A DNA stretch of 43,865 nt from an uncultured bacterium (GTDB lineage Bacteria; Patescibacteriota; Gracilibacteria; Absconditabacterales; Absconditicoccaceae): NCBI GenBank assembly GCA_947170225.1, contig CAMVSQ010000008.1, forward strand, positions 1 to 43,865, given 5' to 3'. Both the position numbers and the translations under genes were made by a program. Shown here piece by piece: positions 4,620 through 35,678 of the stretch (its first letter is position 1; the number at the start of each line of letters is the position of its first letter). The notes beneath the pieces are model-generated. The model made no database searches. It was given only the letters and a program-made list of their open reading frames with translations, and had not been told where the DNA came from.

Positions 4620-5735
4620 TTAAAAGTTTTGTCCACAGATTGCTCCACTACTCCATGCTCGTTGAAGATTAAATCATCAAGTTTTTCCTATGATATCCAA
4701 GCATTCTCAAATGAAAAAAAGATTTGCAACTTTTTTGCACTCAAAATTTGGTTTGATTTCATCCATGTCTACTCATCCACTGCTGACTTTTGCTTCTTCC
4801 AATGGTCTAAAATTTGTGATTTGGGTTATTATTTTTTGTTGTCATTCTGAGCATAGCACTGTGCTCGGCTCAAGCGAAGCGAGTCCCGTCTTCAGTGGGG
4901 TTAGCAGAGAAGAATCTAAAAATTTTTCAAGTTTTTTGGTCATTTCATTTGGAGTGATTTTGATATTAAATTTTCATTGTTTTTTAGTCATATATTCAGC
5001 GAGTCAGGCACTACAGTTGAAAATAGCTGGGCCAGATAATCATCGATGGGTAAACAAAATATTTCATTGATTTTCATAGATTGTTTTGTTTCAGTCTAGT
5101 ATTTCTACTTTTCAGCTAATGCTACTTCATGTAAGTGATGAAAAGTCAGTTTTGACCTCTAATCAACACAGCGCAGGAAAACTTGGAATGATTTTTAATC
5201 AAAATTGTTTTGCTATATCGATTCAAAAACTAGTTGCTCAGATTTGTGGATATGAAATTCATCATGTAGAAATCACTAAATTTTTGCACAAAAATTCACT
5301 TTGTTCCGTGGTGATTTTGAAAAAATCGTTTTCTTTTTTTACTTTTGTGATTGTGTGTCAAGTCTGGATTTCTGCATTATTCTCTTCACTTTTTTTAATC
5401 AAAAAATCTAATAATTCTTTTGATTTTCAGCTTTTTAGTATTACTCTGCCATTATCTTCAATATTGTATTTAATTCAATTTTCATCCAAATAATTCATGA
5501 AATCGTAGTTTGAGTATTTGTGAAAAACGGATGCTAGCATTTTTTTATTTTGTCAGAAATATCTGTCTGGGTCGATGTTTAAGTTTGTGAAATTACATCT
5601 TCATCATCCAGAAAGGAGAATTTTGTTTCATAGAGAGTTTTGTTTTTCTATGATTAATTTTTTGCTATTTTTTGAAGCATTTATCGAGCAAAAAAGTCCA
5701 CTGGCTCATCATCAGATGATTATTAAGTCGTACAT
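4620..5735 (-). CDS. BaiN/HI0933-type FAD-dependent oxidoreductase
   Basis: The 371-aa product begins MYDLIIIGGGASGLF, the FAD-binding dinucleotide fold (GGG all TGA), followed by KILLSGGGRCNFTN (about 40-53), VISTGGISYPQIG, a GLSGPAIFN segment and the C-terminal FIGECLDIIGKTGGFNL. These are signatures of the HI0933/YhiN/BaiN flavoprotein family. The position before AWSSG, normally Trp in NLQWAWSSG, is CGA, as is the residue before GLSGP in FTH-x-GLSGP. Residues about 273-298 (DSSLL...SEGQ) are foreign to the family and are encoded by a dispersed repeat inserted in frame. Physiological substrate unknown. The gene is convergent with the SLH gene. Confidence 0.9.
4841..4918. repeat. dispersed palindromic element inserted in frame in the flavoprotein gene
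   Basis: On the plus strand it starts GTCATTCTGAGC and ends near GAAGAATC, the arms shared with copies at 9676, 28445, 29868, 30065 and 32483. Between the arms are further GC-richer inverted segments (CACTGTGCTCGG, GCGAAGCGAG). Its length, 78 nt, is divisible by three, so the flavoprotein frame stays open; on the coding strand the right arm reads SEGQ with G=TGA. Confidence 0.8.
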
Positions 5736-5880: not shown

Positions 5881-5912
5881 AAAACTATGTAGAACATATA
5901 AAAATAAAATTT

Positions 5913-6176
5913 ATGAAAAAATTTAATTGTGAATTAGTTGTATCGATCATAATGTTTGTATTTATGATCTTGTCTGTTGTGGCACTTTTTGTTTCTTTGA
6001 CATTTAGTGCCTTAAAAATATCTACAGTTGTTGATTTTCTGGCAATTGCTAGGTATTTATTGATTGGCTTTATGATCTGCATATTATTTGCTACAAAAAA
6101 ATCCCAGAGAAATTGATCTGGGATTTATTTGAAATTATTTAAGCTTTGCTGTAAACTTCGTTCTACTACTTTGTAG
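5913..6176 (+). CDS. small membrane protein, possible standard-code import
   Basis: ATG 5913 follows a good promoter. The first 67 codons encode a small protein with two hydrophobic helices (about residues 8-30 and 44-62) and no recognisable family. There is no internal TGA; its one internal glycine is GGC. The first TGA (6114) lies in the loop of a terminator hairpin, exactly where a standard-code gene would stop. In this organism's code the frame reads on through the hairpin to TAG at 6174 and adds 20 unlikely residues. Either the extension is rarely made because transcription stops first, or the gene was acquired from an organism using UGA as stop. Confidence 0.5.
6099..6130 (+). terminator. 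terminator hairpin containing the in-frame UGA
   Basis: AAATCCCAGA (6099-6108) pairs perfectly with TCTGGGATTT (6117-6126) across an 8-nt loop whose last three bases are the TGA of the upstream ORF. The T tail is short and interrupted. Confidence 0.7.
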
Positions 6177-6196
6177 CACGAGTTTCAGAATGACGA
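6155..6196. repeat. degenerate copy of the dispersed palindromic element
   Basis: ACTTCGTTC...AGTTTCAGAATGACG resembles the right arm of the dispersed element (CTTCGTTCAGAATGAC) with an insertion between its halves. It lies between the small membrane ORF and the trigger factor stop. Confidence 0.45.
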
Positions 6197-6200
6197 TGCT

Positions 6201-7403
6201 TTACAATCACATAACTTTTTCGTAAAGTTTCTTTTCTACATCCAAGTGTTCTCCTTTATTCCAATCAATATCTAATTCTAATTCTTTTGCTATTTGTTGT
6301 AAAATGAAGAATTTTTCCAAGCTATCTTGTGCGGCTTTTGATATATCTTCTACAAAAGCTTTTGCTTTTTCATCTCACAATTGTTGGAAATATTGTTTTA
6401 CTCCATTTTCTCATCCTAGTCTATCTTCCAAATTTTTGATTCTGGATTTAAATTCTTCGTGAATCAATGTTTGAGGGATTGTGATTGACATATTTTTTCA
6501 TCTAATGTCGTTGATGTACTCCTCTACTGATTTGATTAATTCGTTTTCATACTTTTGTCTTTCTATTTCTCATTTGATGTATGCTTTTAATTCTTTTTCG
6601 TTCTTTACATCTTTTTGATCTGGGAATAATTTTTGGATTTTTTCTTCTGTGAATTCTGGAAGAACTACTTTTTTGATGTCTTTGATTGTGATTTTAATTT
6701 TTTTTGCTTCTTTTTCTGATTTTCTCTTTTGGAATGTTGGTGGTAAATCTTTTTCTTTATAAGCTATTTCAAAGTCTTTCCCTTTTTCTTTTCAAATGAA
6801 TTGATCATAAAATTTAGCAAAATCTTTGTCTGTAAATTCTGGCTCTCATAGGTAAACTGTTCATTTTTCTATTTCGTTTCATTCTTTGTCCAAAAAACCT
6901 AATCCAATTTTTGAAACTGTGTCTTTTTGGATTTTGTCAGTATCTACATAATCTGCGTAATTTTTTTTCAGATTGGTCAAAGCATCATCTACTTCGGCAT
7001 CTGTTGCTTTTGATTCAATTTTTTTCATTTTATTTTTTTTCCATTTGTCGTCTTTGACTTCTACCTCTGGATAGATGTCTAATTTTACACTGATAGTCTT
7101 TTTTTCATCATCTTTGTTTAGATCATACGGCTCTCAGATAAATTTAATATCCTTATTTTCGTCCAAAATTGCTTTTAGTCATTCATTTATCAATTTTTCG
7201 TAAACTCACATTTCTATATATTCTGGATTGAGTTTTTCTTCTATGAGATGTTTTGGAGCATGTCATGCTCTAAATCATGGAACTTTTACATCTTTTCAAA
7301 AGATTTCGATCATTTGGTTTTTGGCATTTGATTTTTCGTCATCTGTGTATGTAACTTCGATTATGTAGTTACAGTTTGTTCATTTTTTTAATTTTTTTTC
7401 CAT
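6201..7403 (-). CDS. tig: trigger factor (ribosome-associated chaperone)
   Basis: The 400-aa product has the ribosome-binding N-domain with VPGFRAGHAPKHLIE (about 39-53), equivalent to the family's GFRxGxxP signature, written with TGA for Gly. A charged middle region and a helical C-terminal chaperone domain follow (NEKELKAYIKGEIERQKYE and onward). The peptidyl-prolyl isomerase domain between about 150 and 240 is divergent and insertion-rich. Length is a little under the usual 430-450 aa. It would bind nascent chains at the L23 exit site. It is transcribed divergently from the MATE gene; the shared 160-bp intergenic region must hold both promoters. Confidence 0.88.
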
Positions 7404-35282: not shown

Positions 35283-35678
35283 ATGGAGAATTATGTTTTT
35301 GAAAATCTTGTCATTTATTTCGTTCTATTGTTGCATTATCTGTATCAGTGGATGTTAGAAATTAAATTTGACAATCACAAAGCCCGTGGAATTTTGATAG
35401 CTCTTTGGGTTATGGCAATTGGACTAATACTTGGCTATCCTATCTATTTGGGTGGCTGGTATTTATTACTACTTATTTCGTCTTATGTTTTAATCATTGT
35501 TTCGTTCCTTTTGGAACCGGTAATTATTGAAAAAGGTTGGGCGAAATTCTTTTGGTCTCTCTGAGACCATTTTTTTAATTCTAAATTTTTTTGCTGGAAT
35601 TTTGTATTTGGATGTCTATTATGTTTATTGTTTACCTTTTTAGTTTATCTATGCAAAAAATTATTCTTTTGGAATTAA
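35283..35678 (+). CDS. polytopic membrane protein, possible standard-code import
   Basis: Codons 1-93 encode a membrane protein with about three helices (residues 8-24, 36-56, 60-80). All five internal glycines are GGN and there is no TGA until 35562, which lies in a terminator hairpin. Read with UGA=Gly, the frame continues to TAA 35676, adding a further hydrophobic stretch ([18 protein letters not shown]) that could be a fourth helix, and overlapping the AlkD start by 28 nt. Whether the short (standard-code) or long form is made is open. No family recognised. Confidence 0.6.
35553..35576 (+). terminator. terminator-like hairpin containing an in-frame UGA
   Basis: TGGTCTC pairs with GAGACCA over a 3-nt loop and is followed by seven Ts, a canonical terminator. 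The UGA at 35562-35564 straddles the loop and right arm. If active, it would stop transcription before the end of the code-25 ORF and leave alkD needing its own promoter. Confidence 0.75.

Follow-up and report, generated by a model that had tools for sequence, protein, structure and literature searches.

We observed that the hairpin lying across the end of the small orphan ORF at position 5913 is, from its sequence, best read as the terminator of the converging trigger factor gene, tig, and as bidirectional at most. We assign a probability of about 0.7 to the joint reading in which the hairpin serves tig as intrinsic terminator, perhaps on both strands, ORF 5913 is native and not imported, and the TGA in the hairpin loop is coincidental. 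As to the ORF itself, we are undecided between a young, glycine-poor small membrane gene and a frame that is open by chance in a T-rich spacer. The stretch of DNA that was analysed (the window, 43,865 nucleotides) corresponds to contig C8 in an assembly of 952,577 bases, and 948 of the 953 kb of the assembly were examined as stretches. The features around the ORF are the following:

4620-5735, minus strand: gene for an HI0933-like flavoprotein, the divergent neighbour, with 28 TGA codons
5853-5880, plus strand: promoter-like site TTGAAC-16-TATAAT, a 10/12 match 32 nt upstream of the ATG
5913-6116, plus strand: orphan ORF of 67 codons in the standard-code reading, hydrophobic, with at least two membrane-type stretches by hydropathy
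6099-6126, minus strand: putative terminator hairpin of tig, with the in-frame TGA 6114-6116 in its loop, the U-tract on the minus strand and a weaker plus-strand tail; possibly bidirectional
6114-6176, plus strand: code-25 continuation of the ORF by frame reading, from Gly68 (6114-6116) to TAG 6174-6176, its end entering the dispersed repeat at 6162-6194
6201-7403, minus strand: trigger factor gene tig (Trigger_N E 1.3e-22, Trigger_C E 8.4e-12), with 16 TGA codons as glycine

The use of UGA as glycine in this genome was supported by three observations: a tRNA with the anticodon UCA (at C10:30895-30968; Gly in code 25), the lack of any match above cut-off when a prfB model was run against the genome, and TGA as the main glycine codon of native genes (64% of their Gly codons). 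The best prfB match scores 248 bits (cut-off 370), itself carries 9 TGA codons and is probably RF1. The genome also has SmpB (C12:27155-27595) and a tmRNA (C6:30236-30605, 78.8 bits), so trans-translation is available.

The sequence facts of the original prediction were all verified. From the ATG at 5913 to the first in-frame TGA at 6114-6116 the ORF has 67 amino acids, no internal TGA and a single glycine, encoded by GGC, and the TGA forms the final three bases of the hairpin loop. It was also borne out that in the local code the frame traverses the hairpin; code 25 adds 20 residues and takes it to TAG 6174-6176 (87 amino acids in total). From a background of about 3.3% TGA per codon, simple arithmetic indicates that the first TGA of a frame open through the 28-nt hairpin falls inside it in roughly 1 case in 4.

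The hairpin has 10 perfect pairs and an 8-nt loop at 6109-6116 (GAAATTGA), and extends to arms of 15 nt with one A.A mismatch (fold of -17.3 kcal/mol, z -4.8). It lies 74 nt downstream of the tig stop, and a run of seven T directly follows the stem on the minus strand (GGGATTTTTTTGTAGC), while the plus-strand tail (ATTTATTTGAAATT) is interrupted by A and G. A stable G+C hairpin beyond the stop and an immediate U-tract are thus both found on the tig strand, and since the uninterrupted T-run sits there, the hairpin would be a tig terminator first. We also compared native stops that have a T-tailed hairpin within 120 nt: 18 of the 22 precede the stem by 14-27 nt, and not one is within it. As native stops stay outside terminators, ORF 5913 does not simply have the layout of a normal gene with a UGA stop and a terminator, as had been claimed. 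Between tig and the hairpin, positions 6162-6194 form a dispersed repeat that recurs elsewhere in the genome, on C2 and C4, with 88-91% identity. A dispersed repeat at 4836-4915 (core GTCATTCTGA), with 111 copies in 948 kb, lies in frame within the HI0933-like gene; it adds about 20-25 residues that are absent from homologues, and recalls in-frame insertions of palindromic elements.

We evaluated how informative the lack of TGA is. TGA was absent from 7.8% of the 67-codon windows of native genes, from 45% where there was no more than one glycine, and from 4.6% of native membrane-like windows; this last share is low because such windows are usually glycine-rich, while ORF 5913 is glycine-poor. 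Since the product is glycine-poor, the absence of TGA is weak evidence, and a test for GGN-only glycine (one Gly, GGC, and no TGA) rests on a single residue.

The coding signal of the ORF was intermediate between background and native membrane genes. A membrane-gene codon model gave it +2.3 bits, where native membrane windows score 14.3 (sd 7.6) and background -15.9 (sd 7.3); the code-25 extension gave -0.32 bits per codon, which is a non-coding score. When the 465-nt intergenic region was shuffled, an ATG ORF of this length arose 2.4% of the time under code 11 and 2.9% under code 25; there are hundreds of spacers in the genome. A T-rich strand accounts for the high hydropathy: it was reached by 10.8% of simulated stop-free frames, and 30% showed at least two membrane stretches. 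A promoter score of at least 10 was seen for 25% of native genes and 7% of random intergenic stretches. The missing Shine-Dalgarno sequence is uninformative, because such 4-mers precede just 3 of 382 native genes. On the opposite strand, an ORF of 65 amino acids (5885-6082), likewise free of TGA, overlaps ORF 5913 and is probably a shadow frame.

Homologues of the 67-residue product were not found among 49 genomes of the family, 380 sampled genomes of the phylum or the same genus (represented by one other species), where conserved homologues under purifying selection would mark a functional membrane protein gene. Scans of phages, plasmids, viral contigs and genome contigs, which for contigs detect close relatives only, gave no homologue either, in standard code or otherwise. 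Relatives gave weak matches of 24-40% identity (E 0.004-0.5), some of them with internal TAA, and these were dismissed as hydrophobic chance matches. Nothing significant was obtained with Pfam, PHROGs or NCBIfam; a match to phrog_11297 (E 0.018 over 20 residues) was discarded. In relatives tig has different neighbours, and an equivalent ORF next to it was not seen; an HI0933 search of the same-genus genome gave no match.

To place the ORF between foreign and native codon usage, we used a synonymous codon score trained on native genes and on 28 standard-code ORFs, with foreign windows scored leave-one-out. The foreign ORFs were chosen by eye for lacking TGA and, in most cases, carrying GGN. Some may in fact be native, but that would weaken the contrast and not produce it. 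With glycine included, ORF 5913 scored -3.0 bits; this falls at the 50th percentile among native windows without TGA, and every foreign 67-codon window scored higher. That total already contains the 3.6 bits towards foreign contributed by GGC (1.5% of native and 19% of foreign Gly codons); without glycine the score was -6.2 bits, and only 1.7% of foreign windows were lower. The ORF is short, so these statistics are limited in power, and a non-coding frame would score native-like too.

The original prediction had also suggested recent transfer from a standard-code donor. Here ORF 5913 would be an unrecoded gene recently gained from a standard-code bacterium and UGA 6114 its former stop. It is TGA-free with one GGC glycine, and its UGA lies in a hairpin as in several other ORFs of this genome. 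A scan for TGA-free frames near terminators did find TGA-free ORFs with GGN glycines sitting between code-25 genes, so standard-code ORFs are genuinely present, two of them with domain or family matches, and other foreign ORFs point to Bacteroidota. Three serve for comparison:

C7:15423-16472, minus strand: standard-code ORF for a protein with a T9SS sorting domain (PF18962, TIGR04183)
C3:68425-68817, minus strand: standard-code C-terminal part of GlsA, a lyso-glycine-lipid acyltransferase (NF053697, E 8.2e-31)
35283-35564 of the window, plus strand: membrane ORF of 93 amino acids with 6 GGN and no TGA glycines, its UGA (35562-35564) in a hairpin with a T7 tail

We take the T9SS sorting domain and GlsA both to point to Bacteroidota, and a donor search with the T9SS-domain protein gave no close relative. 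The GlsA ORF is a remnant whose N-terminal part is broken by stops and frame changes, with its UGA in the 5' arm of the terminator stem. The genes flanking these two ORFs use TGA heavily, so a wholly foreign contig is not the explanation; assembly chimeras could, as far as sequence alone can tell, still be their source. We counted ORFs of at least 60 codons whose last codon lies in a T-tailed hairpin or within the 40 nt preceding it: TGA ended 10 of them, and 16 control codons 0-7 each (mean 2.5). The UGA was inside the hairpin in the ORFs labelled C3:68817, C1:74802, 35283 of the window and C23:2676 in this count, and in C11:4778 by inspection. ORF 35283-35564 scored +19.6 bits towards foreign and is flanked by native code-25 genes (an ABC transporter ATPase and a DNA alkylation repair enzyme); it has no homologue in viral contigs or plasmids. 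A TGA-free ORF of 344 amino acids on C10 (11012-12046, plus strand), a candidate thymidylate synthase, lies in a stretch of 43% GC and possibly has a different donor. Genuinely imported genes that share this unusual layout thus seem to occur elsewhere in the genome, one within the window itself, and to this extent the idea of unrecoded transfer stands. For ORF 5913 itself it does not: its codon usage is that of the median native TGA-free window and below that of every standard-code-ORF window, its GC of 28% is near the 30% of the genome, no collection searched held a homologue, and the hairpin is accounted for by tig. We therefore consider transfer unsupported and unlikely for this ORF. Still more doubtful is a joint version in which ORF 5913 belongs to a group of unrecoded standard-code genes in this genome, at least some of Bacteroidota type, whose UGA stops lie within terminators and whose transcripts become non-stop mRNAs cleared by tmRNA.

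In the preferred reading, with a native ORF and a tig terminator, the transcript, its end and any translation are inferred. The hairpin would end the tig transcript on the minus strand, and perhaps plus-strand RNA too. Should the plus strand be transcribed, the RNA would begin near 5887 and reach the hairpin after about 250 nt, and the loop TGA, if translated, would be read as glycine. An RNA ending at the hairpin would have no in-frame UAA or UAG and would need tmRNA rescue, so a non-stop transcript, the other proposal of the original prediction, is possible for this frame; if RNA polymerase reads past the hairpin, UAG 6174 would end an 87-residue product. Terminators late in or just after the coding region are repressed by translating ribosomes in E. 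coli (PMC4824070), which would favour read-through if the frame is translated in a coupled way. That repression also speaks against a very improbable reading in which the ORF encodes a functional native small membrane protein, its mRNA ended before the stop as a regulatory device and trans-translation limiting its amount. The frame is open across the hairpin, SmpB and tmRNA are present and a promoter-like site lies upstream, all of which speaks for that reading; but neither the ORF nor its extension is conserved, the extension scores as non-coding and enters the dispersed repeat, and the plus-strand U-tract is poor. The spacing of about 250 nt between promoter-like site and hairpin, with the weak coding signal, would also suit a short RNA, non-coding or antisense, that converges on the 3' end of tig. 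We regard this as hardly likely at all, since Rfam gave no match across the window apart from two tRNAs and no conservation was seen.

ORF 5913 alone is of little importance. It led to standard-coded-looking ORFs that end in UGA at or inside hairpins in a bacterium where UGA is glycine, and ORF 35283-35564 illustrates such genes better. These ORFs make it testable whether a cell without RF2 reads through imported UGA-terminated genes, silences them or handles them by non-stop rescue; the idea has been raised for Vampirococcus (PMC8080830). If there is indeed an unrecoded set of genes, no RF2 and clearance by tmRNA, the genetic code would act as a filter on imported genes.

When we compared the locus with known systems, the neighbours of ORF 5913 resembled the code-25 genes of Gracilibacteria and Absconditabacteria (UGA = Gly) in using TGA as the main glycine codon, and the presence of a UCA-anticodon tRNA with no prfB found here is as reported for a gracilibacterium (PMC6851277). 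ORF 5913 differs in that its one glycine is GGC, and because of this it does not itself show code 25. Code-11-compatible phage genes in code-25 hosts likewise have no in-frame TGA, and cluster several different stop codons at gene ends (PMC10746230); ORF 5913, unlike these, has no TAA or TAG for 20 codons past its TGA and no phage homologue. The standard-code ORFs of the same genome (T9SS, GlsA and 35283-35564) are similar in that several have the UGA at or inside a terminator hairpin, but they combine foreign codon usage with multiple GGN glycines, and ORF 5913 has neither. As for bidirectional intrinsic terminators between convergent bacterial genes, the frame of ORF 5913 departs from them in having no stop before the stem and a plus-strand tail interrupted by A and G; it shares with them the A-run, hairpin and T-run between converging frames, a layout that several native convergent pairs in this genome also show.
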